DNA from: Candidatus Omnitrophota bacterium
GTDB lineage: Bacteria > Omnitrophota > Gorgyraeia > Gygaellales > Profunditerraquicolaceae
DNA: 40,458 bases
Reading direction: 5' to 3'
NCBI GenBank assembly: GCA_028718225.1
Contig: JAQUMI010000008.1
Location: 1-40,458, forward strand
Shown here: piece by piece, positions 1-27,416 of the stretch
Layout of the letters: each line of letters opens with the position of its first letter
How positions within the stretch are numbered: position 1 is the first letter of the stretch
Notes under the pieces: generated by a model
What the model saw: only the letters and a program-made list of their open reading frames with translations
Databases searched by the model: none
What the model was told of the DNA's origin: nothing
Translations under genes and position numbers: made by a program

Positions 1-279
1 CCCTATTCCCTGGCTGCCGAATGTTTTGTTAAATTAACCCATCTTCAGTTGTTTGATGAAGCAAATAAACGCACCGCCTGCCTTTTATTGAACTTTGTCC
101 TTTTAAAATTAGCAGCCCATTATTGTATCTTAAGCAAGGATAATGCCCATAGATATTTCAAGATAAGCAATGATATTGATTTTCGCCTGGGGAGTATTCC
201 GATCTTTCCGCTGAATAACATCTGGGAAAAGAGGTTAACCCAGCAATTCGCCAAATTTTTAAGCCAGAACTCTTTAAAA
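1..279 (+). other. Segment A: C-terminal part of a Fic/Doc-like domain
   Basis: The frame from base 46 reads QLFDEANKRTA, which matches the Fic/Doc active-site motif HxFx(D/E)(A/G)NKRTA in every position except the catalytic histidine, which is glutamine here. A His does lie two residues further upstream and would need a shifted alignment. The hydrophobic helix that follows the motif in Doc proteins is present. The N-terminal part lies outside the window. Doc/Fic proteins modify targets with AMP or phosphate; the substitution suggests reduced or lost activity. Confidence 0.6.
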
Positions 280-6200: not shown

Positions 6201-9200
6201 GTTGTACCGGGCAAGGAGAGATTTAGTTAGAAATATAACCGAGTATAGACGCCAGTCATATCTTGCTAATCTTCCGAAAAGATGGGGCAAGGCGGATATT
6301 GTTACATTACACTCCCCGTATGTTAAGGAAGATTACCTTATGCAGGTTGAGAACGGTACTGTTGTAAAAGCGGTCTATGATAATTTGAAGCCGGGAGGAG
6401 TGGCGCTTATTTTAACAGAGTGGCATATCTATGGGTTAAATGGGGATTTAAACATTACTCCGAAAAGAGTAGTGCGTAAGGCTTTCATGAAGAGCCTAAG
6501 AAATATTTTTGGGCGTGAGAATGTCAGAGAAACGCCGATCCCATCGGGGTATTTCCAAGAAGCATTAGTTTCATACAAGCTTTATAAAGGAAGGAATTCA
6601 AATAATGCTGATTTCGGCATAAGTTTTTTGCAGGCGCAAAAAATACAGCGTCCGGAGGCTAAGAATATATCGGCGGATAGAAATTGTGCTAGCTCTCCGA
6701 TAGCTGTTTCGCCGTGGCCGGCTAACCTAGTGCCTAAGTTGCGCCGGGTAGCGTCCGAATATTTCCCTTATGTTTTTAATAATTCTACGCTGGCAGAGGC
6801 CAAGGATGTTTTTAATCAACGAAGCAATAATTTTTTAAAGGAATTGCTCTCTCTGGTTGGCGGCAGGCCTCTGTCGAATTTAAGTTGGGATTATGAATAT
6901 CCTGTGAGAAGTATAAGATGGCTTGAACTAGCCCTGAAGGATAAATTAAATAATGCTTTTGATGCCGCAATATCATTATGCGAACCGGATTGGGTTGAAA
7001 TAAAAGGCCTTAAAGTCCCCGCAAGCTACCGCGGCAGAGTTAGCTTGAAGGTATTCTTTGATGGCAGGGACTTACATATTATTGTTACTGATAATGGCCC
7101 GGGATACGGGAATGCAGCGGATACTAATTGGAAACGTAACAGAGATATTTATTTCGGAAAGAGGGGCGGAGGTATCGCTTCTATCCGGGATATAGCTAGA
7201 GGTATTATTGTGCCGCATGCCGAAATCAAGAGGGGTGTTATTAGGTCAATAAAATTTAACTTATCCGTAGTGAGCGAATTAAAAAATAGGCTTATCCAGT
7301 CCGTATATATGGAAGACAGGAAAGAAGGGGATAATTTAAAATTTAATCTTCAAGAAACCAGGGAAATCTCAGAAGCCTCTAGCGGCAGCGAAAAATTCAA
7401 ATTTATCAGTAAAGAATTAGAATTCAGTTCGAATGACGCCAGGCAGGTTACGGTAACCGAGTTGATTATCCCCCGGGAATTTTTACAGCCTGTGAGAATG
7501 GCAAAAGAATTAACCGTTAAATATGGGATTATGCCGAAGGGGCCGGTATCTTCTTCGCCTGTAGAAATAGAACAGGCCTTAGCAGTTCTCTATGGAGAAG
7601 AGCGGCTGGAGTATTTCAGAAAAATTAAAAACGCGATTCTTCCTGGGGCAGCGGTGTTGTTCTATCCGGGGTTTGGTTCAGATGTCATATTGCCGCTGTA
7701 TCTTTTTAATCCTGCCGTAATCCTTGCGACAGACGAGCTTCCCTTCTCAGAGGAGGGGTCTAACGGCAGCCGATGGATAGAAGAATACGAGAGATATAAA
7801 GAGGAATATATGTACGATAAGCTTTTCTACGGGTTTTCCAAAACGGAATTACTGGAGGCAATCCGCTTTTTGGGCGCGCCGATTATATGGGAGCTGGAAT
7901 TATTAGGGGTAAAAAGGGAGGATATTAATATCGACGCATACAATAACAACATTGCGAGGGTATCCTTTATGTGGCACTCAAAGGATAAGGGGGATTCGTT
8001 ATATGAAATACGTTTCTTTGGCGGGATGGACCTGAATGATGTCGATAGATACCCTGATTTTTTAAAAGAGTCGATGGAAAAAGCGGACAGTTTTATGCAG
8101 AAAGCTCTCTGGTCGGTAAAGAATAAGTCGCCGGATATGCCGCTCCCAGCCGCTTTAAATTATATCGTTAGCAATTTAAACGGCCCTAAATCCACGGTTT
8201 TATCAGACAGGCGGTTAGGGCTGGACTTTGATTGTTGGGAAGAGGCCTACTATTCAGATGTTCAGTTTGGCCATTACAATGGAGTTGAGAAGGGAGGTTT
8301 CATTTACCGGCGTAAAACGCCGCTTATCCTTTCTGCTGAAAATATTGCCAGTTCGCCGATTATCCGGGATTCAAAAATAAGAGAAGCAATAAGGATCGGG
8401 CCCCTAAAAAGCTCTTCGCCATTAAAGGTATTATTTATAGATTATGAAGGTACATTAGTTTATGACCTTAAACCCAGAAGTGAGGCAGAGCGTCTTTATC
8501 GTTTCCAGCTGGAGTCCGGCGAGAGGATCTTCGTGCCTTTTGATGGCGCAGTCGCTTTTTTAAAAGAACTAAGGAAGCGAAAAATAGAAATAATATGCGT
8601 TTATGGCCTAACGGGAGCCGTTATCTATAAGGCGATAGAAGAAAATCTTTCCGGATTGCGTCCGGTTGACCACGTTAAGGGCGAGAGCAAGAAAAAGATA
8701 ATAGAGGTAGTTTTAAGCAGGAGAGGTATCCCTGCCAGGCAGGCAGCGTTTATTGATAACTTAGCTTCCGAAATCAAACAGGCAGTAGAAATTCCCGGGC
8801 TCACTGTTTTGGGTTTTTCGGCAGGCAACGAGAGTGCGGCAGGAGAATTAATCGCTGCCGGAGCCAGGGGGATTATAAGTGATTATTATGATAACGGCAG
8901 GGAAGCACTTAGGCTTTTGGGAATTATCTCTAAAGAGCCAGCATCTTCCCCTTTAGGCGGCTTTACAAATGATATAGTCCTCTTTCCGGAGAAGGGGAGT
9001 TCGCCCGTAAGAAATTATAATAAGGCATGGCAGCGCCCAATGGTGGGCAGGGGCGGTAGTATCGTAGAAGAGGCTTTTGCCTTACGCGTATCAGTTCAAG
9101 GCTATGCCCAGAAATTATTGAAGATCTTGAGTGATAATAATATACCTGTAAATGGAGCCCTCACCTACGCTATACCTAAAGTTGAAGAGGCTACAAAAGA

Positions 9201-12200
9201 TAAGCCGGCTAAGTGGTTCAAAATGGCAATGCAGCTGGGCATAGAGCTTATCCGGGATGAAGGGATACTCCCCTGTCCTGTTTTGGCTTTAGGCGTCCCG
9301 CCGGCGGTTAATTCTTCCGAAGGATGTATTAATGGATATGCAGATAACCTTAGACGCCTAAGGTCTTTGGTTATGGAAATAAATGAATCTACAAGAGAAG
9401 AGATGCTGAGAAAATTTGCTGCAACCTGGGAACGCCCCTCTGGCAAAGCAGCGGAACAGGTGTTAAGGAAAGAAGTTTATCGGAGGATCACTAGGGTATT
9501 ATCATCCTCCAGCTCTCCGGTAGAAGCGTATTTAGCGAAGCAGTTAAGCGGTTATGGCTATAACGATACTCTGCGCCGCAAGGGCTATGTTGATTGCCAT
9601 GAACAGAAGATAAGGGTTAATTTCTACGGAGAAAGCTACTCCAGAAAGGCCGAGACTTATTTTTATCGTTCCGGGAGGATAATCGTTATAGATAATCATT
9701 ATCTCCATTTATTCAATTTAGCGAGATTTACTGAAGATGGGGTGGTAGCGATAGGCGTAGATATATTGGATATGCTTCGGGAGGGTTACGCTTACGACTC
9801 TAGATCCTTTCAGCAATGGACCGTCGGATGCCTGTTGGCGATGCAGGAGCTTGAGTTTAAAGATAAAATAGTAGTGGATGCCGGCAGCGGCGACGGAGTA
9901 ATAACGTTTGCCGCCCTAGCTTTAGGCGCAAAAAAAATATACGCCCTGGATATGTATGAAGGCTCCCGGAAGGTCATTTTAAAGTCGCTCGGGATAAACG
10001 GTTTTCCGCAGGAGAAAATAAACTTCCAGTATCTCGGATATTTATTTTCTGAATTGAAGAGAAAGGCGCCTTTTGACAAAAAGGCAGATATCTTAGTAGC
10101 TAATTTGACGCAGTTCGGCATTCCCGGGTTAGCCGGGGATTATGATAACTGCCTGAAGAACGACGATTTGGCTGACCTGACCGACTTTTTTAGACCAAAG
10201 ACGGTTATTATTTCCGGCAATGGGAATATCGGGTATCTGAAGCAGCACTTAGCCAGAAAAAAGTTCGCTTACAGGGTTGAGAGAGAATTATATTTTGAAA
10301 ATGAATTTATAGGGGGGGTTTTAAGAGAAGCATCCAGTTCTCCGGCAGTGGGGCTTATGGATACTGCAGCCGGAAGATTAAGAATTCTGGATAATTATCT
10401 ATTCGAACGTTTGATTCGGGAGCCGGGCTTGGATTATAAAAAAGAACTCCTTATCGCAGATGTGGGATGCGGCAAAGGCGCAGTGACCAGCATTGAATTA
10501 AGTGATTACGCCAAGAGAGCCGGTAATTCCCCAAAAGTAACAGTAATCGCCTTGGATAGCAGCCAAGAGGCTTTCGAGAACATCAATATGCTTGATTCCG
10601 AAGGAGTAATTTTTCAAGAAGCAGATTTTCGCTCAAAATATTATTCCGGATTAAGGGTGGACATAGTAAGGTGTATTAATGTCATCCGTTGGCTTAATCC
10701 GTGCGATTTCATTGAAAATATCGCTGCTTTAGCCGGGCCTTTAACCGAAGGCGGAATTTTGATAGTCGGAAATAATGATATAGATGACTACAGGATACTT
10801 ATGGCATTTGTTTATCAGAAAAAAAACAGCGGTCTCTTAAAGAGGCAGATCTTGTTTGGTTTTGTTGGTGAGCGTCTGGATGAAAGATTTCTGGAGGTAA
10901 TTAAGGGTTTCCCGCAAGGAGATAAAGATATCCTCTCTTTCCGCAAGGATATCCCGGAAGCCCGAAGCGATTTCAAGAACGGATATGTTTTTAGCTTTGA
11001 AAGAGGGCTAGGGCAGCTGGGCTATGGAATTGTAAATAAAGACGGCTACAGGCTAACGGTTAAAAATTTTAACCCGCCTAGAATCGGAGCAATTCCGGTC
11101 CTGAATACCTCCAGCTCTCCGGCCAGGAAAGCTACTACTGTCAATCAATTATTTAATCAGCGCCAGATGGTTGCCTTAGAGCTTTTGTGCCAAAATGAGC
11201 CTTATAAAGAAATAGGCAGGGTTTTAAATTTAAGCCACCAGGGAACGGTAAAGAAAATCGTTCATTCAGTCCTTGATGCCTTTGGGCTGGAGCATAATAC
11301 CAAGAAAGCTTGGCCTCAACTGGTAGAGAAGGCTAAGGAATTTTATCCCGGTATCCTGATTAATCCGTTGACTGATACGGAAAAAAATATTTTAACCCTG
11401 ATACAAGAAGGCAGGATAAAGTCTAGGGATATTGCCAGTAGCAGGCACGTGACAGTAGAAGCAAACAAGAGGCATATTCGCGGGATTAAAAATAAACTTG
11501 GTATTAAGGGAAAAGGATTTGGTCCGGCGGTAGCCGAGAAAATCCTGAAGCAGGCCTTAGAGATGAAATTACTTTCTCATATGCAGAATAAGGCGGTATT
11601 CCTTTCTGATGTGCAAATAAATGCATTATCGTTGAGAGCGGCAGGTCTTTCTTATGGAGAGATCAATACGCAGCTTGGGATAGCCAGAAGTGATGTTTTG
11701 TGTAGTCCTGCGTATATCAAGAAAAGGGCGAGGCAGCAACAGATTAAGATAACGCTGAAAAGCGGAAGCCATAATACGCCGTTCGCTACATCTTTGATTT
11801 TAATCAGGGCATTACAAGCTCAAGGCCAACTGCCCAAGGAGCTTGATCTGTCCAGTTTGCAATTAAGGGCAAAAAAGGAAAAATTTGGCTTCGCTAAACT
11901 TGAAATATTGAGGCTCTTAGCTTGCGGGAAGGATCTTAATGAGGTTATGGAGATACAAAAAAGGTCATCTTACGGTTCCCTTTGGGGCCTGCTTAAGAAA
12001 TCTTGCCAAGCCTTAGAGGTAGATATCGAGATTTCAGAGAAGGCCGATTTTCTGCCTCTTCTACAGGCTGCCAGGCGGGAGGGCTTAATAGAAGGATATC
12101 TGACTATGGATGAATTAATTGCTGAAATGGAAAAGAAAATCGAATGCTTAGTTTCCATAGGTATCTTAAAAACAAGAGGCCAAGTATTAGCAGGGTTGGA

Positions 12201-15200
12201 AGAAAGAGCCAAGCGCCGAGGGGATATTATTAGTTTAGCTAGGATAGAGCGTTATTATCAAAACGTCGAGCCGCGTATTAGCATGGAATCTAATTCCATC
12301 AGCGCCGGCTCTCCGTTAGCGAAGAACCATATGGCCAGTCCCCTTTATAAGATGCAGGAGCAGGCATTTACCGGTAGATTATCCAGCTCTCCGGCGGTTC
12401 AAGATTCGGCATTAATGCCGATGAAGTCTTTTTTTGTGAATGCCAGAGTATGGAGCGAACTACCCGATTACTTTACCGAGATAATCACAAGGTCAATAAG
12501 CTGGGCAGAGGGAGATATTTATCCTTATGGTATAAGGGGGAGAAGGACCGCGGTATTTCCTTTAAAGCGCCCTGTTGAATGCAGCAACGGTAAAATTATC
12601 CGGGCCCTGGAGATCAAAGGCATCTTATTTAAAGAAGGAGACTCAGTCAGTCATCCTTTGAAAGAATTATACCGGGTTTTCAAGGTCCCGGAATTGGATG
12701 CGCAGGGTCAGATAATCCTTCGTGATTCAACAGATTTAAAGGGCGGCTTGGCGTATAGAGCTTCCGTCAACGAATACCGGATACTAAAGGAACTTAACGG
12801 CAGAGTCGACAATGACTATGCTTATCCTGTCGGTTACGGCCAATACCGTGATTACCGGAATAAAGATGAGGCTTTTGGGTTTTTCATAAGGGGGGTGAGC
12901 CAATATCCCGGAGAGCGGATATGGGATCTTTTAAGGAGAAGGCACGGGAGCAATCTTTACAATAGTATTTCTTTATGGAGGAAGTACTCCGGTTTATTGG
13001 AAAAGTACGGTTTAGCCCTGCGCGATTTTCATGACGCCGGTTTCTTTCATAATTATCCGCATTTAGGGAATATCTCCTGGAATAGGGAGAGGGAGAGGAT
13101 AATCTTTCACGATTTTGAAACCTGCTTGAGCATAAAAGACGAAGCCCGCGAAAGAAAGGTCAGCTACCGCCTGATGGATTTATTTTCCGCCTATGCCCAC
13201 TTCCTGAATTTTGCTTTTGGCAAACACGAGAATTTTCAGGATTTGTTTTCTTTGGACAGCAGGTTAAGCGCACGCCAAAACCCTTTTATTCCTTTCTTTA
13301 AGGGGTACTTTAACAGTGCGGAAGCAGATTTGCATTCTTTATCCCCGCAGGTTATTGACGGATTCTTCTCCGCAATGATCGAGCCGGTTACAGAAATAGA
13401 TAATGAGATTATCCGGATGCTCTTGGACAGCGAAGTTCCGGGGCAGGATACCGGCAGCAGCCTTTCTTCTAAGGCAAGCTCACCTTTAAATAACCTCCTT
13501 CAAAAAACAATTTCAGTACTGTGCGGGGATTCGGAGGTTAGGCCGGAGCTTTTCCGTTTTATAGAGGAAATTCGCCGCCAGGCACTTGTTCTTCTTTTTG
13601 CCGGTTCTGATATGCGGGAGAATAATGCGTTAGTAGATTATAAATGCCGGGAGCATGATAATTATGATAGTTTATATAGCGAGATAAAACCATTTATCAG
13701 GTTTATCTCCGTTACTCCACTGTATAGCAATATTCTGTGCTTTTTGGCCTGTACCCTAGAGAATTTGAACTGGCATGTGAGGGACGGATTAGCCTTGATA
13801 GTAGTGTATTTTACCAAGGATATGTGGATAATTTCAGTAAACGACAACGGAAGAGGTTTTCGCGATAAAAAAGGGCGGCCGGTGAGAACCGATGAAGTCA
13901 TAAAATGGAAGAAAAGTCTGGGGAAAAACGGCCGAGAAGGCAAGGGACTTACCGTAGCAGCAGGGAGGGAAGCCGACTTAACGGTTATCTCTCAACCCCG
14001 GGAAAGTTCAGTAATAGCTAAGCTGCCATTTATCCTGCATCCTAAGTGCCGCTCTGTATTTAAGATTGAAAATGATCGCAGAAGGGGAACGAGTATAACC
14101 GGTTATTTTTATAGGGGGTTACTTACTCCGGATAAGCAGGAGTGGAAAGAAGAAACTATCGGCCGCCTTGAAGCGGATTTAAAACAGGGGATTTATTCGC
14201 CGATAATTTCCAGTTCGCCGCTAAAAAAGGACCCTAATCAGCAACTTTACCGAAAGGCTATTTTTTATCTTAGGTTTAGAAATGTCGCTGAGGCGAGCAG
14301 GGCGGCTTTGGAATTGGCGTATAAGGATCCAAAATTAGCCTACGATTTTTACTTGAGGTTTATAAGGTTGAATAAACCGGGAGTTTTGGAAGAAGTCCAT
14401 AAAGGCGCTCTAAGGTTGTTGATCGCTTATGATGTTTTGGGGAATGAACTTTTTAAGGAGTTGGCTAGGGTCCGGAACCGTTCCAGTTCTCCGGTTAAAA
14501 TTGGCCGGAAGCATATAGTTGAGATCTGCGGGGCAAGGTTGAAATTGATCCCTTACGGAGATTTTGCTAATGCAAGGGTAGAAATACGCACCGGCGACGG
14601 TAGGGAGGTAGGATTTATATATGGAGTTGGGGAATTTTGTTCTGACGGCCTCAAGAGGTTTGGCCTGAGGGGTATGAAATTAGAAGCGGATTTTAGAGGT
14701 ACGAATCTATCCCTGGGATTAATCAGGGAGTTTATGAAGATTTTTCCCGCAGACTGGATGCATAGAAACCACAATCCTTTGTTAAGTATCATATTCAAGG
14801 AGCATTTTGGATTTGGCCCGGTTAATCCTGATTTTCGCAACCGGGTATATGTTGGCAGGCCAGATGAAAATAAGATCATTCCGCTATTTTTCCCTTACCA
14901 TCAAGAGCCGCAGAAGGCAATTCCGGATAATGGATTGAATTTAGGATTTAAAATAACCAGTACAACCCCTCATCCCTATACGAAAACTTATATTATGACA
15001 GAATATACAGGCTGCGGGAGTTTGCCGGCGGGGGCACTGGTGAGGACTTATAGTTCTGCCGCCTCCTCGCCGTTATATAATAAAAATTTTGAATTAACTC
15101 AAACTAATTTTACTTTAGATAAGGCGTATTCATTATTACGAGAGTGTAAATTTAGCGGAGATTATGATTTAGTATATTCCAGGGCATTATTACGTGAGAT

Positions 15201-18200
15201 TTTAAACTATCCCATTGAAAAAATTATGGTAGTAGGTATGGGATTGAGATATTTACCGTTATTATTGGCTATGGTAGGTAAACAGGTAGTTTTTGTAAAT
15301 AAAGATATAGCACGTCTAAATATTGTGCAGAATGATGCGCGTACAATAAATGCACTTTTAAAAGAGCCAAGGAAAAAATTGCGCATAGAATTTATTCAGG
15401 GTGAGATAGGTTCTTTGGACATAAAAGCCAATAATTTAGAACCAGAAAGTTTTGACCTAGTTACATTCGTTGATTTGATTGGCGGTATCCCTCAAGGAAA
15501 TCCCAGAGATTGGCTTTTAAAGGCCAAAGTATTGCTTAAGCCAGAAGGCTATCTGGTTATTGATGAAGATAAGGCCAGGGAAGGCCAAAGTAGCCTCATT
15601 GATTACTTTTCTGATATTTTTCCTGAATATGAACAGCTAGCAGGGGGAGCTTACCTTAAAGGGGCATGGAATGGAGAACGCAGTAAGAACCGTTTCCTTA
15701 AAATTAAATCATCTATCGGCGCGCCCAAGAGATTATTTGAGGCAGGTTCTTCTTCCCCTGTTTTTTCTTTAAGCTCGGTAATACTATCTGAATTGAAATA
15801 TTGGATGGACAATTATCCGCCGCTAATTAAAAATAAAAAAGCCACTAAATATAATGAATGGGAACCGACCTGTGATGAACCATCAGGGCTAATAGAGCCG
15901 CTGCCGGTTTTAAAAAGACGCCCGCTGAACTATGCTGGTAATGGAGATAAAGGAGAAAAACCTAACTGGAAGACACTAGAAGTAAAAAATTATTTTACTG
16001 TGCAATTTCCCAGTAGAAAAGCCCAAGGGATAATATATCGGGAAATAAAACTCGGCAATAAAGCAGCCCTACGCATGTTTATAGATATAGGATTAGCAAG
16101 AATAGCAGCTCTAGCGGTTAGCTTTATAAAAAGCCTCCCCCGCAAAATAATTCAAGATGAAGATTGCTATGCTGGCGCCCTTGATATCATTCAACATCCT
16201 TTAATTTACAGGTATGTGAGGGATTTAGCGGTAGCTTTTAATTATTTTCCAGATAACGGTACTTTTGAAGGGTTTATCGAAGAGTATTGGAAAAATTTCT
16301 GGCGTAAGGAAATGGCGTGCGAATTAAATAACGGGATTATTCCAGTCCCCCATAATTTTTATCAGCGTAGACACAAAGTAGTAGAGGCAGCACGGGTTTT
16401 AGAAGAATCAGGCCTGTGGGCGAGTTATGAAAGAATCAGCCAGGTATCCGGTATGGATCTGGATAGTGTTCACGCTATGATTGGCGGTTGCCCTCTTGAT
16501 GGAAATATAGTATCTTTTGAGACACCTATCTCTGATAATAGGGAAGAGAGTTTTACATTAGAAGATACTATCGGGTTCGAACCGAATAGCTGGACAGGGA
16601 AATTGACCGTTCTTATAAATTATCTAACTGAGAGAATGAAAAAATGCAGGGTAGGATGGCAGCAACAAATTGTATTTATATACTATCAAATCTTGAAATA
16701 TGGGTGGGCTGAAACCAATGAAGAGTTAGCCAAGAGGGGCTTTACTCCAAAAAATAATCGTAAGCGTATTCACCAAATGGCGCAGGAAGCTGTCAAAAAG
16801 TCCGGATTAAATGCGGAAGTGCTAGAAAAAATTCAAGATGAATTAGGTATAGGCAGTTCTTCTTCGCCGGCAGAACAAAATATCTCTACTCCTTACGTTT
16901 TTTCTATGTCAGCGATTAATCAGAATTATAGGTATACCTTTGATAACTCTATTTATACAATTGCTTTAAGTTTTAGGATACCTCCTTCCCAGATTTTATT
17001 AGCTTTACCGTTTCGGATGAGAATGAACTGGCGTAAAGAAGAGAAACAGTTTATGAAGATCGAGAAGGTATTAGGACGGTTTAATTGTTCGGGCCTGGAA
17101 GAGTTACTTGAGCGCGCATCGGAAATAAGAATAAAAGCTACAAGAGAAGGGTGGAAGGAAACGCAAAAATTGCTTATGTCATTATTCCCTTTTTTACCTA
17201 AAGAAGAGAGAGAACCTAAGTTGGATTTTGTCCCTGAATTTGACTGTAATGAACTTTTTATATTAAACCGGAGCGTTGCTTCTCTGTCTAATCCTGTCTG
17301 TACATCGGGAGATTTTCAAACTACAGACCCTTTTAGCCACGCTAAGGATAATTTTACCTATATAGTGAAAGTATTGCAACTGGAAAGGTTGTTGCATAAT
17401 AATAATGTAGAGGTAAACGCTCTGATTATTTTTTGCGATAATTATTTTACAGAAGCATTGCATTCGTTGATCCGGAAAAATGAGCAGAAGATAAAAATAC
17501 TGCGATATGCCAGGGATCGTGGTTTGCCGATTGTTCTGATACCTTCGCGTCTTTGTGATGATCCAGGGCTCTATGAATATACCAAACAAGCTGAAAAATG
17601 TATCGACGGGTATTCTTATCGTCGGGAGGGGCTGTTAATTCCTTCCAGCTCGCCGTTGCTTAAAGGGCGCAGCCCGATGACAGATAAAAATAACGTTTCT
17701 TTTTTATCAGGAGTATTTTTAGGGGAACTGGGGGTGATCTCTTCGGGTTATGCAGAGTTGAATAGTGTGGTTATTCGGATTTTGAAAAAGCTTAGCGGCC
17801 AGTATTCTTATACCCGGGTTCATTCTGAACGGGTGGCACAATATAGTTTGCTTTTGGCTGAAGAGTTGGCGCAAAAAAAGAATGGTCCGTTTGATTGGGC
17901 AGACTTCCTCTTGAACGCCTATCTTGCCGGGCTCCTGCATGATATTGGTAAGGTTAACATTCCTAAAAAGATTATTAATGGTAAAGCTGGCCTCAATGAA
18001 AAGGAGCTTATCAAAATAAAAACCCATGTTTCTGGAAGTGTCAGGATCCTTAAAAAATATCCTATTTTCCCAAGAGAGGTGATAGACGGCGTCCGGTTCC
18101 ATCATCAGAGATGGAACGGGCAAGGTTACCCATATCAGTTAACCGGAGAGAACATTCCATTAATAGCTTCTATTGTTTCTGTGGCAGACGTATTTGATGC

Positions 18201-19572
18201 TACAACAAATAGGCGCCCTTATCATAAAAAAGTTTTGGATCCTCAAGCTACTAGAAAAAAAATTATATTAGGCAGGGGTACGCAGTTCAACCCTAAAGTA
18301 GTGGATAGTTTTGAAGAGTTATGTTTTGAAAATAAAATTGAGCCTATTATGGAAAATGAGGTCAGTGATTATGTGAGAACGATTATGTCGGGAATAATCG
18401 AGCAGAAAAAAATAGAAACCGCCAGCTCGCCGGTAGACAATTACAAAAAGACCCTTTTCCAGACCTTTAGTTTAGCGATGCAAGGCAAGGATTACCCGGC
18501 CGCATTGAATTGTCTGAAGAAGATTTTATTCCGTTACCCTCACGATGCAGAAGCCATGACTGCTTATCTTAAGGTTACCCGGGAAGCAGGCTCTCTTAGG
18601 GAGGATGCTTTTAGAGATATAAACGAAATAATCCAGGCTAAGCAGTTTTCTTCGGCTGCGTATTATATCCGTTCAGTTTTATACTATGATAAAAAGGATT
18701 TTGCGAATTGTCTGGCGGATTTGTGCCGCGCAGTTGAATCCGCCGACGGAGTAAGCAGTCATGTTTTACAGCTTTTGAATAAAATAATCCGCCTGGATAT
18801 GATATTAGAGAAAGAGCATAAGTTTTACGTCGCCGGTATCTCCCTGGTTCAAGAAATAGAAGATACCGTCCGCAAATTTTTGACCCGCAAAATGTCGCTA
18901 AAGGATTGGGATGTTTCTATCTGGGAAGGGATAAGTTACATAATCCTGGCCAATGCTTTATTAAACAGCGGCAGATACGCAAAAGCTCAGGAGAAACTGG
19001 CTATTGCCCTATCCGCTGAAAATATTGCCGGGATAAAAGCAAGTGGGTTAGAATTAAGCAGGTATTTATCCCGAGGTTTTAATCTGCGGGCGAGCATATC
19101 TTTATTTTTGGCGGAAGAGTCTTTAATCAAGGCAGAATTGGGCTGGGTGAACGGCCTTATTATTTCTAACGAAGATAAATCAGAGATTGAAAAAATGCTC
19201 AGGCAGGCGGATGAGAATATAGCCATGGCCGAGGCCAGCGACAGGACTTATATTGACGGAATTAACCATTTGTGGATACGAGACTTAAGGGGCAAGCTGC
19301 AGTTTATTATTAATAATGATTACGCGCGGATTTTATTAACGATCCCCCATAAAGAGGGCTTACGGGTCTTGCATCAAGCTATTGCGGCGGTCTTACGGAA
19401 AAAGGGTGGCCGCAGGTTCAATCTCGATGAAGTAAATGCTGTTGGAATCAGTCTAAATATGAAAGATGTGGAATGCCTCAAATCAATAGAGGTAATTCAT
19501 ACTATCCAGGATTATCCCCGGACATATTATTATTCCGGGATGAAATTATTTATTGTTCCGTTGCCAAAATAA
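1..19572 (+). CDS. Giant multidomain polyprotein-like protein, 5' end outside window
   Basis: The frame is open from base 1 to the TAA at 19570-19572 (at least 6523 codons). The TTG at 49 used by the ORF track is not the likely start, because the frame continues upstream and already encodes part of a Fic/Doc domain; the gene begins outside the window. Residue numbers here and in the segment entries count from that TTG. The protein is a chain of about 23 segments separated by 26 SSSP-type linkers: Fic/Doc, TPR, transglutaminase, six or seven SAM-methyltransferase folds, P-loop NTPase, two GHKL ATPases, HAD, LuxR-type HTH, kinase-like, GNAT-like, sigma-70-like, HD-GYP and TPR. I see no clear transmembrane helices, so the visible part is probably cytoplasmic. 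Giant genes are known in Omnitrophota, but this domain mix resembles fused regulatory and enzymatic proteins rather than an adhesin or a polyketide synthase. Overall function is unknown; whether it acts whole or is processed cannot be told from sequence. Confidence 0.9.
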   Translation, partial: PYSLAAECFVKLTHLQLFDEANKRTACLLLNFVLLKLAAHYCILSKDNAHRYFKISNDIDFRLGSIPIFPLNNIWEKRLTQQFAKFLSQNSLKSSSSPVDPDGISAKIRKEYGPELLKITRLLERGEFESLLKGFEALIRKAFPEAKPYFLAEKGAVLSRLGRYSEAIDLYRQAYEIARAAGISDEGFSLEVKTSVEMNQVLSIYQHYKMEREPLVKVIEKIEQSVQSYPEDIDVLRMAASILAKERVFGRAVTIAQAGLKLNGNASDKAELCLIIGSVHGAGKKLEEAKEAFVAGLEFYQESLRDKHFRFAAKETAEKLYTNLGEIYQEQDKPEEAIAAWEKAVRLSGGNNRLTEKIALACINFAHYQKAREYIQNIFSNHFDEVQELLSQVDTEEGYRLIFQEGFSGAEENKRKRFAEKILQAELKEQGKAVIALREIIEEGLVSAAKKMKGKLKPRHTRMLEEAVPVLMVLEGQFCVNPYQVPPEIKRRIPELMELEERSGKILQWFRKAYADFLSAPDEQAQFEFCIKKSLANRNNIIILLNSIDTLVDIIDREVCVVTDEPYIEKIDFVYSKGDPDCLARVYEDAQAGRYFLSYEFNLACEPGFLDEEETKRAGEYLSQRKRAYQEVFRYNQVFNKKLIAALADKRSARGPIADIKKKIGFLQSEVAGITVGPTGKLELKPKEDLFSALNEMAATAAKLNSSSPLLPLEITEVEGLKTRIEEAAAKLDKAGFFTVLEKEFFHIFKIRGNWVICVPASYILVNLLKKILDLSFERNGGFSIGMIFGGVAVNGEKYEIVDHTWLTVYSGNKRIISIDPTYGQFDGEFIGKFLIVDFEESKNAGYLEWDEFLETEFEKYRKRNFGQTPEEIIYNLRKSFREMAEIEPLKFLFPPRLLLLYDEGSKTRRAEENPGVILPIFRENPLFENIDFDAIVERLYSYYCSSSPLEYDYIYRMLARGGFSSSPVEISPMLKPLNITLDDYSIYSKFADNKLQEGGKKIKEGKPKEALSFYLTALEHPLFGYKAMLGKFPLRHKLYPEFEQQILALESCCQEIISSYGPELNRQTPAMSFTYQGRLKALHSELSKFLKKDGRDMDLPLIVVDVGIGSDGAPTTFDLAESLSEAGFKNLRIYGIDNNTAFLKKAEDALARNALASKPNLKIKFRYAQDFDFSGLKELYDREANTGKVDMVIAANVLMYYDSYSRKVAIERMLKVLNEKGILSLSTGPNVVYHEYIDFSICAKDGMYIEGYEQRRLFEGYGRKRLFADNKPSLSLEKILKKVPLDSGNGLLIGAMRNPKGTFVIRERVYDQEDFLHLILKVDTDNFSEELAGWNNFSLKGDKLIVGSNRDKDEIEVKKLRSGGLGSFLIYCMLCKAIENSAKEYFIFSPRTPLFSHFGINQEKVGRKTGYYIYTDSLKPEQIEQALITTRSGERKLNFEFIYKERKSSSPVVGPHRGQAVPLSKDTIQCSTELILEELRLVPLQSAEERQIYRYNGDFFTRRAWGVIDNGKSRALFIRIGYLFFLDSTAYSRLSPALKEILGPNVILLRKLWLNEIAKFPFSWYNAPVIISMMERRITADKTILDIGAGYGIISLTALKLGSSFVHLVDSYWPALLIANIQLELNGKVRGLDFQFHCGDITQKPFVKEQVGVIRNNIRDSSEEILVVSNIGVWPGVYTATNAHSIGLVKHFPEITHFTGAGYTYTPSLNFKQTRHDYAFIRRLGFEVEPEPVRVGRTELIASWNAKRTSLPLNKIRPGAAALSSKTSGSPVGKIDIFDFAKIAGDIIGRQSIQGVLIGNRSSGKVLLILGLPGIGKSSIARLLVCDKESSYLEENSGLDWVFLGEEILMLIVMSFHGDTKLFCEVSESIRAGVLDAYLSFRLGRDNSKYITDIKSKNGIYALSDILVLGYNEAGIYNQIKILENKLGISFPGKVEIRSQTIKERSLEEYFNIADSIRALSGNPGGSKISGLVYRPLPSSSPVEKGAGAALTYSRKLNFPITDFSKAVFPGIKIFDFGCGHPMYRNVSWEQSLKKRYKGLEYYGVDNDGLCFAEIIVDAAGALLNRLYRARRDLVRNITEYRRQSYLANLPKRWGKADIVTLHSPYVKEDYLMQVENGTVVKAVYDNLKPGGVALILTEWHIYGLNGDLNITPKRVVRKAFMKSLRNIFGRENVRETPIPSGYFQEALVSYKLYKGRNSNNADFGISFLQAQKIQRPEAKNISADRNCASSPIAVSPWPANLVPKLRRVASEYFPYVFNNSTLAEAKDVFNQRSNNFLKELLSLVGGRPLSNLSWDYEYPVRSIRWLELALKDKLNNAFDAAISLCEPDWVEIKGLKVPASYRGRVSLKVFFDGRDLHIIVTDNGPGYGNAADTNWKRNRDIYFGKRGGGIASIRDIARGIIVPHAEIKRGVIRSIKFNLSVVSELKNRLIQSVYMEDRKEGDNLKFNLQETREISEASSGSEKFKFISKELEFSSNDARQVTVTELIIPREFLQPVRMAKELTVKYGIMPKGPVSSSPVEIEQALAVLYGEERLEYFRKIKNAILPGAAVLFYPGFGSDVILPLYLFNPAVILATDELPFSEEGSNGSRWIEEYERYKEEYMYDKLFYGFSKTELLEAIRFLGAPIIWELELLGVKREDINIDAYNNNIARVSFMWHSKDKGDSLYEIRFFGGMDLNDVDRYPDFLKESMEKADSFMQKALWSVKNKSPDMPLPAALNYIVSNLNGPKSTVLSDRRLGLDFDCWEEAYYSDVQFGHYNGVEKGGFIYRRKTPLILSAENIASSPIIRDSKIREAIRIGPLKSSSPLKVLFIDYEGTLVYDLKPRSEAERLYRFQLESGERIFVPFDGAVAFLKELRKRKIEIICVYGLTGAVIYKAIEENLSGLRPVDHVKGESKKKIIEVVLSRRGIPARQAAFIDNLASEIKQAVEIPGLTVLGFSAGNESAAGELIAAGARGIISDYYDNGREALRLLGIISKEPASSPLGGFTNDIVLFPEKGSSPVRNYNKAWQRPMVGRGGSIVEEAFALRVSVQGYAQKLLKILSDNNIPVNGALTYAIPKVEEATKDKPAKWFKMAMQLGIELIRDEGILPCPVLALGVPPAVNSSEGCINGYADNLRRLRSLVMEINESTREEMLRKFAATWERPSGKAAEQVLRKEVYRRITRVLSSSSSPVEAYLAKQLSGYGYNDTLRRKGYVDCHEQKIRVNFYGESYSRKAETYFYRSGRIIVIDNHYLHLFNLARFTEDGVVAIGVDILDMLREGYAYDSRSFQQWTVGCLLAMQELEFKDKIVVDAGSGDGVITFAALALGAKKIYALDMYEGSRKVILKSLGINGFPQEKINFQYLGYLFSELKRKAPFDKKADILVANLTQFGIPGLAGDYDNCLKNDDLADLTDFFRPKTVIISGNGNIGYLKQHLARKKFAYRVERELYFENEFIGGVLREASSSPAVGLMDTAAGRLRILDNYLFERLIREPGLDYKKELLIADVGCGKGAVTSIELSDYAKRAGNSPKVTVIALDSSQEAFENINMLDSEGVIFQEADFRSKYYSGLRVDIVRCINVIRWLNPCDFIENIAALAGPLTEGGILIVGNNDIDDYRILMAFVYQKKNSGLLKRQILFGFVGERLDERFLEVIKGFPQGDKDILSFRKDIPEARSDFKNGYVFSFERGLGQLGYGIVNKDGYRLTVKNFNPPRIGAIPVLNTSSSPARKATTVNQLFNQRQMVALELLCQNEPYKEIGRVLNLSHQGTVKKIVHSVLDAFGLEHNTKKAWPQLVEKAKEFYPGILINPLTDTEKNILTLIQEGRIKSRDIASSRHVTVEANKRHIRGIKNKLGIKGKGFGPAVAEKILKQALEMKLLSHMQNKAVFLSDVQINALSLRAAGLSYGEINTQLGIARSDVLCSPAYIKKRARQQQIKITLKSGSHNTPFATSLILIRALQAQGQLPKELDLSSLQLRAKKEKFGFAKLEILRLLACGKDLNEVMEIQKRSSYGSLWGLLKKSCQALEVDIEISEKADFLPLLQAARREGLIEGYLTMDELIAEMEKKIECLVSIGILKTRGQVLAGLEERAKRRGDIISLARIERYYQNVEPRISMESNSISAGSPLAKNHMASPLYKMQEQAFTGRLSSSPAVQDSALMPMKSFFVNARVWSELPDYFTEIITRSISWAEGDIYPYGIRGRRTAVFPLKRPVECSNGKIIRALEIKGILFKEGDSVSHPLKELYRVFKVPELDAQGQIILRDSTDLKGGLAYRASVNEYRILKELNGRVDNDYAYPVGYGQYRDYRNKDEAFGFFIRGVSQYPGERIWDLLRRRHGSNLYNSISLWRKYSGLLEKYGLALRDFHDAGFFHNYPHLGNISWNRERERIIFHDFETCLSIKDEARERKVSYRLMDLFSAYAHFLNFAFGKHENFQDLFSLDSRLSARQNPFIPFFKGYFNSAEADLHSLSPQVIDGFFSAMIEPVTEIDNEIIRMLLDSEVPGQDTGSSLSSKASSPLNNLLQKTISVLCGDSEVRPELFRFIEEIRRQALVLLFAGSDMRENNALVDYKCREHDNYDSLYSEIKPFIRFISVTPLYSNILCFLACTLENLNWHVRDGLALIVVYFTKDMWIISVNDNGRGFRDKKGRPVRTDEVIKWKKSLGKNGREGKGLTVAAGREADLTVISQPRESSVIAKLPFILHPKCRSVFKIENDRRRGTSITGYFYRGLLTPDKQEWKEETIGRLEADLKQGIYSPIISSSPLKKDPNQQLYRKAIFYLRFRNVAEASRAALELAYKDPKLAYDFYLRFIRLNKPGVLEEVHKGALRLLIAYDVLGNELFKELARVRNRSSSPVKIGRKHIVEICGARLKLIPYGDFANARVEIRTGDGREVGFIYGVGEFCSDGLKRFGLRGMKLEADFRGTNLSLGLIREFMKIFPADWMHRNHNPLLSIIFKEHFGFGPVNPDFRNRVYVGRPDENKIIPLFFPYHQEPQKAIPDNGLNLGFKITSTTPHPYTKTYIMTEYTGCGSLPAGALVRTYSSAASSPLYNKNFELTQTNFTLDKAYSLLRECKFSGDYDLVYSRALLREILNYPIEKIMVVGMGLRYLPLLLAMVGKQVVFVNKDIARLNIVQNDARTINALLKEPRKKLRIEFIQGEIGSLDIKANNLEPESFDLVTFVDLIGGIPQGNPRDWLLKAKVLLKPEGYLVIDEDKAREGQSSLIDYFSDIFPEYEQLAGGAYLKGAWNGERSKNRFLKIKSSIGAPKRLFEAGSSSPVFSLSSVILSELKYWMDNYPPLIKNKKATKYNEWEPTCDEPSGLIEPLPVLKRRPLNYAGNGDKGEKPNWKTLEVKNYFTVQFPSRKAQGIIYREIKLGNKAALRMFIDIGLARIAALAVSFIKSLPRKIIQDEDCYAGALDIIQHPLIYRYVRDLAVAFNYFPDNGTFEGFIEEYWKNFWRKEMACELNNGIIPVPHNFYQRRHKVVEAARVLEESGLWASYERISQVSGMDLDSVHAMIGGCPLDGNIVSFETPISDNREESFTLEDTIGFEPNSWTGKLTVLINYLTERMKKCRVGWQQQIVFIYYQILKYGWAETNEELAKRGFTPKNNRKRIHQMAQEAVKKSGLNAEVLEKIQDELGIGSSSSPAEQNISTPYVFSMSAINQNYRYTFDNSIYTIALSFRIPPSQILLALPFRMRMNWRKEEKQFMKIEKVLGRFNCSGLEELLERASEIRIKATREGWKETQKLLMSLFPFLPKEEREPKLDFVPEFDCNELFILNRSVASLSNPVCTSGDFQTTDPFSHAKDNFTYIVKVLQLERLLHNNNVEVNALIIFCDNYFTEALHSLIRKNEQKIKILRYARDRGLPIVLIPSRLCDDPGLYEYTKQAEKCIDGYSYRREGLLIPSSSPLLKGRSPMTDKNNVSFLSGVFLGELGVISSGYAELNSVVIRILKKLSGQYSYTRVHSERVAQYSLLLAEELAQKKNGPFDWADFLLNAYLAGLLHDIGKVNIPKKIINGKAGLNEKELIKIKTHVSGSVRILKKYPIFPREVIDGVRFHHQRWNGQGYPYQLTGENIPLIASIVSVADVFDATTNRRPYHKKVLDPQATRKKIILGRGTQFNPKVVDSFEELCFENKIEPIMENEVSDYVRTIMSGIIEQKKIETASSPVDNYKKTLFQTFSLAMQGKDYPAALNCLKKILFRYPHDAEAMTAYLKVTREAGSLREDAFRDINEIIQAKQFSSAAYYIRSVLYYDKKDFANCLADLCRAVESADGVSSHVLQLLNKIIRLDMILEKEHKFYVAGISLVQEIEDTVRKFLTRKMSLKDWDVSIWEGISYIILANALLNSGRYAKAQEKLAIALSAENIAGIKASGLELSRYLSRGFNLRASISLFLAEESLIKAELGWVNGLIISNEDKSEIEKMLRQADENIAMAEASDRTYIDGINHLWIRDLRGKLQFIINNDYARILLTIPHKEGLRVLHQAIAAVLRKKGGRRFNLDEVNAVGISLNMKDVECLKSIEVIHTIQDYPRTYYYSGMKLFIVPLPK
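298..2115 (+). other. Segment B: TPR-type helical repeat region with coiled tail
   Basis: Residues 84-689 are helical, with TPR-like units such as RYSEAIDLYRQAYEIA and KPEEAIAAWEKAVRL in the first 300 residues. These units usually bind other proteins. The later part (about 400-680) is charged and helical with no family I recognise. A second TPR block ends the protein, so the visible part is bracketed by TPR regions. Confidence 0.7.
2131..2835 (+). other. Segment C: transglutaminase/papain-fold-like domain
   Basis: A possible Cys-His-Asp triad is visible: Cys742 in WVICVPAS, His788 in DHTWLTVY and Asp804 in SIDPTYGQF. The order, the spacing and the aromatic after His fit the transglutaminase-like protease fold, where the hallmark is a histidine in a strand followed by a strand ending in Asp-Pro. 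The Cys context is not canonical, so the assignment is moderate. The substrate is unknown. Confidence 0.5.
2908..4344 (+). other. Segment D: SAM methyltransferase fold followed by GNAT-like domain
   Basis: After a short helical stretch, residues 1086-1096 carry a class I methyltransferase motif I (VVDVGIGSDG). It is followed by an acidic strand end (YGIDNN), the strand VDMVIAANVLMYY and a strand-turn LNEKGILSLSTG typical of motifs II-VI. The C-terminal part (about 1310-1430) contains GGLGSFLIYCMLCKAI followed by a strand, resembling the acetyl-CoA-binding loop and helix of GNAT acetyltransferases; that second assignment is weak. Confidence 0.6.
4360..5304 (+). other. Segment E: PrmA-like SAM methyltransferase fold
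   Basis: Motif I is clear (TILDIGAGYGIISL, Asp1571), preceded by a region resembling the N-terminal substrate domain of 50S L11 methyltransferase-like enzymes. The strand ILVVSNIGVW occupies the motif IV position, but the usual D/N-P-P is absent. The substrate is unknown. Overall layout is the same as segment L, suggesting the two are distant paralogues. Confidence 0.65.
5320..5937 (+). other. Segment F: P-loop NTPase
   Basis: A clean Walker A motif, LGLPGIGKSSIA, has its lysine at residue 1802. It follows a strand after GVLIGNRSSGK, an arrangement that recalls the HPr kinase C-terminal domain. No HPr kinase signature loop is visible, so only a nucleotide-binding P-loop fold is supported. 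Confidence 0.6.
5953..6687 (+). other. Segment G: SAM methyltransferase-like fold
   Basis: Motif I reads IFDFGCGHPMYR (Asp2001). It is followed by YYGVDNDG at the ribose-binding strand, ADIVTLHSPY at the motif IV strand and LKPGGVALILTEW at the motif VI turn. This is a typical class I Rossmann methyltransferase order. The substrate is unknown. Confidence 0.62.
6703..7548 (+). other. Segment H: GHKL (histidine-kinase-like) ATPase
   Basis: An N-box-like LNNAFDAA (Asn2302) is followed by a G1 box VTDNGPGYG (Asp2348) and a glycine-rich GKRGGGIASI (G2 position). These are the three ATP-binding elements of the GHKL fold shared by histidine kinases, MutL and gyrase B. No phospho-acceptor His domain is seen nearby, so this is an ATPase module only. 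Confidence 0.65.
7564..8346 (+). other. Segment I: unrecognised alpha/beta domain
   Basis: I do not recognise this family. The N-terminal part has a strand-glycine turn (AAVLFYPGFGSDVILPLYLF) followed by a strand ending in Asp-Glu, which could be a much diverged nucleotide-binding Rossmann fold. The rest is mixed helix and strand rich in Asp, Tyr and Trp. Confidence 0.35.
8425..8940 (+). other. Segment J: HAD-superfamily hydrolase-like domain
   Basis: The segment opens with VLFIDYEGTLV, equivalent to HAD motif I (DxDGT): the nucleophile Asp2798 is kept but the second acid is Glu. A conserved Lys region (GESKKK) and a motif IV-like FIDN follow at the expected spacing. It is therefore a small HAD domain, possibly inactive or with altered specificity. 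Confidence 0.6.
9010..9501 (+). other. Segment K: unrecognised helical domain
   Basis: About 165 residues, largely helical, with a conserved-looking loop (LALGVPPAV) in the middle. I do not recognise a family. It lies between two linker copies, so it behaves as a unit like its neighbours. Confidence 0.35.
9523..10332 (+). other. Segment L: PrmA-like SAM methyltransferase fold
   Basis: Motif I is VVDAGSGDGVITF (Asp3277). It is followed by KKIYALDMYEGS at the ribose strand and ADILVANLTQFG at the motif IV strand (NLTQF in place of NPPY). An N-terminal domain of about 110 residues precedes it, as in segment E. The substrate is not predictable. Confidence 0.65.
10348..11109 (+). other. Segment M: SAM methyltransferase fold, CheR-like order
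   Basis: Motif I reads LLIADVGCGKGAV (Asp3471), then VTVIALDSSQEAF at the ribose strand and VDIVRCINVIRWL at the motif IV strand. A strand after TEGGILIVGNND fits the motif VI turn. The Cys-Ile-Asn-Val pattern recalls the CRNVL strand of CheR-type methyltransferases, but this is only a resemblance. Confidence 0.62.
11125..12303 (+). other. Segment N: three tandem LuxR/GerE-type helix-turn-helix units
   Basis: Three units of similar build start near residues 3702 (FNQRQMVALELL), 3774 (LTDTEKNILTLI) and 3852 (LSDVQINALSLR). Each has a four-helix GerE-like pattern: a helix ending in a small-residue turn, a recognition-like helix (for example VEANKRHIRGIKNKLGI), and a trailing helix. Such units bind DNA in LuxR/NarL regulators, normally one per protein. 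The remaining 180 residues are helical and unassigned. Confidence 0.6.
12397..13473 (+). other. Segment O: protein-kinase-like domain with altered catalytic loop
   Basis: The stretch LRDFHDAGFFHNYPHLGN, followed by IIFHDFE, matches the catalytic and DFG-like loops of Kdo/RIO/aminoglycoside-type kinases (H-x-D-x-H-x-x-N and DFE). The catalytic Asp is replaced by Tyr4336, while the metal-binding DFE is kept. An N-lobe-like beta region with an AYRASVNEYRILKEL helix precedes it. It is likely a pseudokinase or a strongly altered kinase. Confidence 0.55.
13489..14208 (+). other. Segment P: second GHKL ATPase-like domain
   Basis: A G1-box VNDNGRGF and a glycine-rich lid with GKNGREGKGLTVA are visible in the order seen in sensor-kinase ATPase domains. 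The upstream N-box region (TLENLNWHV) is only loosely conserved. As in segment H there is no dimerisation and phospho-acceptor His helix. Confidence 0.55.
14224..14481 (+). other. Segment Q: short helical module
   Basis: An 86-residue, all-helical stretch between two linkers. It could be one or two degenerate helical repeats. No family is recognised. Confidence 0.3.
14497..15060 (+). other. Segment R: GNAT-like fold
   Basis: The strand LKLIPYG, the strand-turn EVGFIYGVG and the element LEADFRGTNLSLGLIREFM followed by a strand resemble the layout of GNAT acetyltransferases, where a RxxGxG/A loop binds acetyl-CoA; here the loop reads RGTNLS. It could be a degenerate acetyltransferase. Confidence 0.35.
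15076..15747 (+). other. Segment S: methyltransferase-like Rossmann domain, AT-rich
   Basis: The strand IEKIMVVGMGLRYLPLLL followed by VVFVNKD fits motif I and the ribose strand of a class I methyltransferase, with Met-Gly in place of the usual Gly-x-Gly acidic context. A strand FDLVTFVDLIGG and the turn LKPEGYLVIDED follow in the motif IV and VI positions. Codon use is visibly more A/T-rich than in the preceding segments. Confidence 0.5.
15763..16854 (+). other. Segment T: sigma-70-family-like domain
   Basis: Three landmarks occur in the order of a sigma factor. There is a region 2-like helical stretch (about 5335-5425). A region 3-like start PVPHNFYQRR (5432) is followed by a helix-turn-helix and PISDNREESFTLEDTIG (5493), matching the 'P-I-x-[DE]-x-E-x-S-x-L-x-D-x-I' signature of primary-type sigma factors. 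A region 4-like helix-turn-helix (WQQQIVFIYYQI onward, 5537-5600) ends it. Region 2.4 promoter-contact residues are poorly conserved, so function is uncertain. Confidence 0.6.
16873..17643 (+). other. Segment U: unrecognised domain, AT-rich
   Basis: About 257 residues with an N-terminal mixed part and a C-terminal alpha/beta part (VNALIIFCDNYFTEALHSLI, then LPIVLIPSRL). No family recognised. It shares the A/T-rich codon use of segments S and T. Confidence 0.3.
17659..18420 (+). other. Segment V: HD-GYP domain (c-di-GMP phosphodiesterase type)
   Basis: All hallmark motifs are present in order: HSERVAQYS, LLHDIGK (His5964, Asp5965), the metal-binding His in KTHVSGSVRIL, FHHQRWNGQGYP (His6018, His6019) and VADVFDATTNRRPYHK. 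These match active HD-GYP phosphodiesterases, which hydrolyse cyclic di-GMP. It is the best preserved enzyme in the chain and lies about 1.3 kb upstream of PilZ genes, whose products usually bind the same messenger. Confidence 0.85.
18436..19572 (+). other. Segment W: C-terminal TPR-like region
   Basis: Residues 6130-6507 begin with clear TPR-like helices (LAMQGKDYPAALNCLKKIL; ANALLNSGRYAKAQEKLAIAL) and end with a small alpha/beta stretch before the stop codon. It presumably binds partners or supports assembly of the giant protein. Confidence 0.6.
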
Positions 19573-26158: not shown

Positions 26159-27304
26159 ATGAAAAAGTTAGTTGCGATTTTAGCGGTCCTGGCTTTAGCT
26201 ATGCCGGTTTTGGCCCTGGCTCAAACCGATACGGCGCAGAAGGAGTTTGTGGTTTATAGCAATAAGAACGCCAGAAATAATCACTATATCCCCTCGGGAT
26301 GGATGGGGGATACCGGCGACATTAAGATGAATGACCAGTCAGCGGATAATCCTAAAAACGGCGCAACATCTATCCAGTTTATTTACAGCGCCAAGAAAAC
26401 TCAAGGTCAGGGTTGGGCAGGTGTTTACTGGCAGAACCCGGCGAACAACTGGGGGAACAAGAAGGGCGGTTTTGATTTAACCGGTATGAATAAACTCACT
26501 TTCTGGGCCCGCGGCGCCAAAGGCGGCGAGGTTCTGCAAAAAGTAATGGTCGGCGGGATAAAAGGTACCTATCCGGATACGGCAACCGTTGAGGTCGGCC
26601 CGATTGAACTCACGGAAAACTGGAAACAGTATACGGTTAACCTTACGGGGCTGGATCTTTCCTATATTAACGGCGGATTCGGCTGGGCGACAACTTCAGA
26701 TTTAAATCCCGACGGAGCAACCTTCTACATTGATGATATTAAATTTGAAGTGGACCCGGCCTTAAAGCCGGAAGGCAAAAAGCAGGAAGCCATGCCTTTT
26801 TATATCTACTCTGACCGCTCCACACCCAGGAACCATTTTATCCCTTCGGGCTGGATGGGCGATTACGGAGATGTAAAATATGACGGCGCTTCCAAGGAAG
26901 ACCCCTACCTCGGGGATAGCTGTATTAAAATAATCTACAATGGCCAGAGGGCTCAAGGTTCAGGCTGGGCAGGTATATTCTGGCAGAACCCGGCGAACAA
27001 CTGGGGGACTGTTGACGCAGGCTTTGATTTATCTAAAGCCACTAAGCTTACTTTCTGGGCCCGCGGCGCCAAAGGCGGCGAGCGCATTGAAGAATTTAAG
27101 GTTGGTGGAATAATGGGCGAGTTTTCTGATTCAGACAGCGTAGTTATCGGCCCGGTCCTCTTGGATAAAGAATGGAAACAATACTCCATTGATCTAAAAG
27201 GTAAGGATATGTCTTATATTATCGGCGGTTTCTGCTGGTCGGCAAATGTCGATAATAACCCTGAAGGCGCTACTTTCTATCTGGATGAGATTAAGTTTGA
27301 ATAA
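26159..27304 (+). CDS. Secreted protein of two duplicated carbohydrate-binding-like modules
   Basis: The ORF track starts at a GTG (26153), but ATG 26159 is preferred: it has GGGAGG five bases upstream and gives a normal signal peptide (MKKLVAILAVLALAMPVLALA). The mature protein is two beta-rich modules of 184 residues in tandem, each opening with YSxxxxxxNHxIPSGWMGD and ending DGATFYIDDIKFE or EGATFYLDEIKFE. The DGATFYIDDIKFE strand and the aromatic loops (GWAGVYWQNPANNW) resemble jelly-roll carbohydrate-binding modules. No catalytic motif is seen. Long stretches of DNA are identical between the modules at an offset of 552 bases, indicating a recent duplication. Placed between two glycosidases, it probably binds their glycan at the cell surface. 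Confidence 0.75.
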   Translation: MKKLVAILAVLALAMPVLALAQTDTAQKEFVVYSNKNARNNHYIPSGWMGDTGDIKMNDQSADNPKNGATSIQFIYSAKKTQGQGWAGVYWQNPANNWGNKKGGFDLTGMNKLTFWARGAKGGEVLQKVMVGGIKGTYPDTATVEVGPIELTENWKQYTVNLTGLDLSYINGGFGWATTSDLNPDGATFYIDDIKFEVDPALKPEGKKQEAMPFYIYSDRSTPRNHFIPSGWMGDYGDVKYDGASKEDPYLGDSCIKIIYNGQRAQGSGWAGIFWQNPANNWGTVDAGFDLSKATKLTFWARGAKGGERIEEFKVGGIMGEFSDSDSVVIGPVLLDKEWKQYSIDLKGKDMSYIIGGFCWSANVDNNPEGATFYLDEIKFE

Positions 27305-27320
27305 GGCTAGTCTACAACTT

Positions 27321-27416
27321 AGGGACGGTTCTCAACACAAGGCCTGCCTGTCCGGCAGGCGGACAAAAGTATCCCCCTATCGGGGACGCTTTAAAATTGG
27401 CTTGAGAACCGTCCCT
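27321..27416. repeat. 96-bp fold-back element (REP-like) with nested hairpins
   Basis: Perfect 15-base outer arms, AGGGACGGTTCTCAA (27321-27335) and its reverse complement (27402-27416), enclose two inner hairpins: GCCTGCC/GGCAGGC (27342-27360) and AAAGTATCCCC/GGGGACGCTTT (27366-27392, with a wobble and a mismatch). The whole could fold as a three-way junction. A related arm pair (GGACGGTTCTA/TAGAACCGTCC) occurs at 37588-37636. Small palindromic elements of this kind are often moved by REP-associated tyrosine transposases, but no such gene is in the window. Confidence 0.75.

Follow-up and report, generated by a model that had tools for sequence, protein, structure and literature searches.

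Can a sigma factor of the sigma-70 family be built into a protein of several thousand residues, and if so, what may it do there? The question is raised by a window of 40,458 nucleotides, contig C8 of a 1.04-Mb genome with 53 contigs, whose giant ORFs and gene content point to Omnitrophota. One of its open reading frames is uninterrupted for 6,523 codons, from base 1 to a stop at position 19572, in agreement with the length of over 6,500 residues given for the chain in which the original prediction had placed a sigma-70-like domain. The giant protein consists of about 20 long segments divided by separators of the form S(2-5)P[V/L/A/I], i.e. two to five serines and a proline followed by one of four residues. 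In profile searches, the segments included the end of a Fic domain, TPRs, several methyltransferases, a HAD-like domain, a LuxR-type HTH array and an HD domain of the HD-GYP kind, together with weak histidine-kinase-ATPase and kinase-like matches. Three LuxR-type HTHs had been predicted; one GerE match (4e-7) was found and the others are weaker HTH matches within 11122-12393, which makes the count approximate. The features relevant here are the following.

1-19572, + strand: giant modular protein, 6,523 aa in the window, 5' end beyond the contig, stop at 19572
11122-12393, + strand: LuxR/GerE-type HTH array segment in the same chain as segment T (GerE 4.1e-7)
15748-15762, + strand: separator SSSPV upstream of T, read from the sequence
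15763-16854, + strand: segment T, divergent sigma-70 module (regions 1.2-2-3-4), assigned by sister homology, profiles and models
15967-16056, + strand: region 1.2-like helices (FPSRKAQGIIYREIKLGN), from alignment and model helices 69-78 and 85-96
16060-16332, + strand: region 2-like helices that retain core D..I and G.F but have lost the W-W/T/Q positions of promoter melting
16336-16488, + strand: region 3-like three-helix unit (IPVPHNFYQRRHK...), pLDDT 91-96 in one model and 57-72 in the other
16489-16587, + strand: region 3.2-like linker with VSFETPISDNREESFTLEDTIG, from alignment, hhalign and conserved positions
16600-16812, + strand: region 4-like HTH (TNEELAKRGFTPKNNRKRIHQMAQEAVKK), from alignment and hhalign, model confidence low (45-65)
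16855-16872, + strand: separator SSSSPA downstream of T, read from the sequence

The giant in the window does not answer to the description of surface or adhesin-type giants (signal sequence, many transmembrane helices, adhesion domains). No adhesion domain was found by profile search, and its 6,523 residues contain only two marginal hydrophobic windows; the N-terminus is missing, and a signal sequence is possible there. The chain holds no HExxH protease motif and no protease was identified within it; a self-encoded HExxH protease was rejected since the motif is absent. Elsewhere in the window, a stand-alone glycoside-hydrolase-like protein is encoded (27246-28634), the C-terminus of which resembles by eye (NEEWFGIVA) that of a 35,009-residue giant from genome G004.

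Segment T follows the order of the sigma-70 regions 1.2, 2, 3 and 4. The succession of region 2-like, region 3 and region 4-like elements had been predicted and was upheld; a region 1.2-like stretch (FPSRKAQGIIYREIKLGNKAALR) is added to it. The signature PIxDxxExSxxLxDxI, taken at first for the start of region 3, is fitted exactly by PISDNREESFTLEDTI but marks the end of that region: in canonical sigma factors, the string SLDAPIGEEGD..x..D.IED sits at this end, and region 3 of T begins at IPVPHNFYQRRHK. Affiliation with the ECF sigma factors, which comprise regions 2 and 4 only, does not agree with T, as region 3 is present and is the most confident part of both structural models.

On its own, T matched no Pfam family (E up to 10) and no PDB chain sequence in a meaningful way, and tblastn retrieved nothing convincing from 59 relatives or across GTDB species. 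With a canonical sigma profile (hmmsearch) it was indistinguishable from its shuffles, 5 of 2,000 scoring as well; a narrow RpoD-only HMM was insensitive. Aligned by hhalign as a single sequence to the canonical sigma alignment, T reached E=0.004 with regions 3-4 in register, a result equalled by one of 100 shuffles, and ranked sixth among the giant segments scanned, right behind five sigma-like segments. Because T alone lacked matches in Pfam, PDB sequences and tblastn, its sister segments were taken as a bridge to sigma-70.

A second place in the genome was found by the Sigma70_r2 profile on contig C33, in a frame of 2,669 residues that is open at both ends and bears the same separators. Two sigma-like segments (A and B) lie in it, and an array of the LuxR/GerE type seen at 11122-12393 comes before each. 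Segment B of C33 matches the Pfam profiles of regions 2 (8.5e-4) and 3 (0.012) in order. T and the B segment of genome G018 can be aligned over 352 colinear columns (BLAST, E=8e-4), and an HMM of the B family matches T at 1.8e-3, with none of 2,000 T shuffles as good. The three members of the B family match an HMM of 78 canonical sigma sequences at 2.7e-10 (C33-B), 5e-8 and 8e-8, and a profile-to-profile comparison of the sister family with canonical sigma (hhalign) gave a probability of 98% (E=2.7e-13, 260 columns). A profile of T and the three B segments found matches in 75 other genomes of the phylum (E down to 1.6e-9), almost all in frames of stand-alone sigma length, about 270-660 codons. 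The search with profiles of regions 2, 3 and 4 proposed along with the prediction gave no direct Pfam match for T, but significant sigma matches for its sister family. Synteny with the giants of genomes G005 and G018 places C33 just upstream of the window; A, B and T would on this ground very probably belong to a single gene with no fewer than 9,190 codons, although the ends of C33 and C8 do not overlap.

Two AlphaFold models of T were compared with PDB structures. Model 1 was built on an alignment of four giant segments only, with no canonical sigma among them, and has a confidence (pLDDT) of 38, the helices of region 3 being the exception (57-72). Model 2, built on 44 sequences including canonical sigmas and thereby biased by its alignment, unlike model 1, has a confidence of 65 and reaches 91-96 in region 3. 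All 50 of the 50 PDB matches listed by Foldseek were sigma factors for model 1 (best E 0.012) and likewise for model 2 (best E 2.7e-4). The TM-scores of the T models are at most 0.27 by query length; given these poor values and the pLDDT of 38 and 65, the whole-chain fold and the arrangement of the regions are therefore not established. The structure prediction nonetheless points to a sigma-like fold at low confidence, so that of the two findings named beforehand as jointly contrary, no profile match and an unlike fold, only the former was made. The link of T to sigma-70 runs via its relatives and is indirect but consistent; descent from sigma-70 and embedding in a giant chain are supported by the profile chains, the fold matches and intact relatives elsewhere.

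Of 66 near-invariant sigma positions, 20 are retained in T, compared with 42-45 in the intact embedded modules. Where core-binding and -10 melting motifs would read DLI-EG and FSTYA-WWI-Q, T reads DIIQHP and FEGFIEEYWKN. Aromatic and polar residues of region 2.4 serve -10 melting in E. coli sigma70, and these are largely replaced in T. As most of the promoter-opening residues are lost, T is read as a degenerate sigma-70-family module, or a sigma mimic, in a polyprotein-like chain; judged from its residues, a role as sigma-like regulator or mimic is favoured over that of an initiating sigma. The sister sigma modules have dN/dS values of 0.15-0.18, with the more distant pairs near saturation at synonymous sites; T itself has no orthologue.

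The original prediction called a tethered sigma factor highly unusual. The case does not stand alone: several modules of this kind occur in the genus and in at least one other family. G004, of the same genus, encodes two within a complete ORF of 35,009 residues, both ends of which lie inside the contig, and G277, of another family, one in a frame of 3,290 residues; in both genomes the Pfam regions 2, 3 and 4, absent as direct matches in T, are fully present in order and above the cut-offs. In G429, two frames (5,122 and 3,075 residues) hold a module apiece, and regions 2 and 4 exceed the cut-off. The 18,962-residue giant of G018 contains sigma-like segments A and B plus another at the C-terminus, in a chain that also holds complete enzymes (debranching enzyme 1e-84, CofD 2e-45, carbamoyltransferase 2e-44). 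In G002, a divergent sigma module bounded by SSSPL and SASPI lies in a chain of at least 57,099 residues. Sigma modules in giant chains are therefore a recurrent theme, and T is among the most worn of them.

These giants show further particulars. Those of G004 and G002 contain five HExxH motifs each, compared with 0.5-0.9 expected, and 63 and 68 hydrophobic windows, respectively. Both G004 sigma modules directly follow an HExxH motif; near the C-terminus of this giant (G004:C9:33543-138569), which begins with an N-terminal hydrophobic signal-like stretch, the two HExxH-sigma units enclose a transmembrane pair. On G277 contig C145, another recurring separator-like string (AYPATMP[LM]S / AYPAYGPI, protein residues 426, 2097 and 2683) flanks modules, the sigma module included, and is followed by two HExxH motifs. 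The giant of V. archaeovorus reportedly has 39,678 aa. The open frame of G002 (G002:C6:1-171297, at least 57,099 residues, 5' end beyond the contig) is to our knowledge among the largest bacterial frames; it contains 135 SSP motifs and its 5' part starts with short repeats (KIDEQKEVLGG). About 90 kb downstream of it, at about 263950-336000 of the same contig, lie about 72 kb of N.

The separators delimit what is exchanged between such chains. The window giant contains 24 of them, whereas shuffled residues would give 0.46, and V, L, A or I comes next after each SS+P (24/24). Serine is encoded here by all six of its codons, and the motif is therefore maintained at the protein level; a DNA-repeat origin of the integron or transposon kind was rejected for the same reason. 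In a DNA alignment with the G005 giant, the homologous blocks have 22 ends, of which 16 lie no more than 15 nt from a separator (chance expectation 1.2, at most 7 in 10,000 simulations). The G005 giant lacks T and the HD segment at 17656-18432 and carries the segment at 16870-17655 in another place, while the blocks adjoining the T/HD region are about 89-94% identical. Modules are gained, lost and relocated at separators. Segments common to both giants have dN/dS values of 0.08-0.50. Their dS is 0.9-1.3 in the window segments 1-294 and 2128-2847 and 0.13-0.57 elsewhere, a contrast suggesting segment-wise recombination between strains. On G005 contig C17, an identical phosphofructokinase-like stretch (IHRIGILTGGGPASGHNEVIASVVEE...) opens two segments, at giant residues 1841 and 2497. 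Separators of the same form bound exchangeable cassettes in the giants of at least three genera (g1, g13 and g62), and this architecture may hold more interest than the sigma segment itself.

Taken together, T is probably a degenerate sigma-70 module in a giant of separator-joined enzymes and regulators, released by cutting and serving as a sigma-like regulator. The giant strings together complete enzymes and regulators by means of S(2-5)P[V/L/A/I], with T as one of probably three sigma-family modules. Such a chain would be cut at or near the separators and its modules would then act as separate proteins, T contacting RNA polymerase or an anti-sigma factor without starting transcription alone. 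The uniform residue after the proline, the exact cassette boundaries and the complete enzymes in G018 favour cutting at separators, and separators and cassette behaviour appear to point to release at least as strongly as to tethering. That the chain instead stays uncut, with the separators as flexible linkers and the attached T bringing RNA polymerase to a multi-enzyme scaffold, seems rather unlikely to us. Short Ser/Pro separators are typical of linkers, the window giant bears no protease signature, and cassette shuffling at the junctions is equally expected of linkers; yet V, L, A or I after 24 of 24 SS+P is stricter than a plain linker requires, and chains as long as 57,099 residues that include complete metabolic enzymes are hard to fit into one obligatory chain.

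The worn state of T could also be that of a decaying remnant, a sigma cassette heading for loss with little sigma use in a gene that tolerates in-frame fusions. T is missing from the nearest giant (G005) and has no relative of its own in the 59 relatives, and its 20 of 66 conserved positions and its GC3 of 0.34, lower than most of the chain, agree with decay. We nevertheless hold this to be unlikely, given that the frame of T is intact without a stop, the order and length from region 1.2 to region 4 are preserved, and purifying selection acts on the sister modules (dN/dS 0.16-0.18); without constraint, a cassette should pick up stops, truncating the chain. A chance resemblance, T being an unrelated helical domain with an HTH, is highly improbable and largely refuted. 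The missing direct profile match, the hmmsearch score no better than shuffles and the low-confidence models would suit it, but T is colinearly homologous with sister modules that match sigma significantly, and all 50 listed fold matches were sigma factors for the model built without canonical sigma sequences. Returning to a released, sigma-like regulator, a wider scheme is conceivable, though on balance we doubt it: some Omnitrophota may make a share of their enzymes and regulators, among them sigma factors, in the form of giant-polyprotein modules with S-S-S-P-[V/L/A/I] as a constant processing signal, evolve them through the exchange of whole cassettes there, and reprogramme RNA polymerase, their own or, if predatory, that of a host, by the released sigma.

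Giant ORFs of more than 20 kb are common in Omnitrophota, poorly conserved and with few annotated domains, some having many transmembrane helices (Seymour et al. 2023, PMC10066038). They share with the window giant the phylum, the size class and the poor conservation between species, but were described as membrane or extracellular, adhesin-like or with few annotated domains, in contrast to the soluble cytosolic-type modules, regular separators and sigma modules found here; the terms 'sigma factor' and 'polyprotein' are absent from the main text of that study (PMC10066038). In the literature outside bioRxiv, most subscription papers and the V. archaeovorus paper, in which a mention is possible, neither embedded sigma modules nor separators turned up in accounts of Omnitrophota giants, and as far as we found, sigma modules in giant chains were undescribed before. 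Separator-bounded cassettes give the unexplained giant genes of this phylum a testable organisation, which predicts module boundaries, cleavage sites and the ends of peptides in proteomes.

Known sigma factors are free proteins or carry short regulatory extensions. The sigma-70 groups 1-3 (RpoD, FliA/WhiG-type) share with T the order and length of regions 1.2-2-3-4, the region 3.2 signature and the predicted fold, but stand alone (270-600 residues), whereas T lies between separators within a protein exceeding 6,500 residues and keeps 20 of 66 positions. Recurrent sigma-70 modules in chains of 3,000-57,000 residues would be a novel means of storing or controlling the initiation of transcription. 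Among ECF sigma factors, fused extensions are found in IutY, ECF48, ECF52 and ECF53, and some are activated by proteolysis (PMC8999054). For IutY, activation via proteolytic release is established, and the extensions of ECF48/52/53, up to about 400 residues, contain anti-sigma or transmembrane parts (PMC8999054). Like T, these are sigma domains covalently joined to other domains; unlike T, they are devoid of regions 1.2 and 3, both of which T has, amid tens of unrelated modules. PhyR is a response regulator with a sigma-like domain that acts as an anti-sigma factor antagonist (PMC5830050). It thus resembles T in keeping such a domain within a larger protein and differs from it in combining an ECF-like domain with a single receiver domain.
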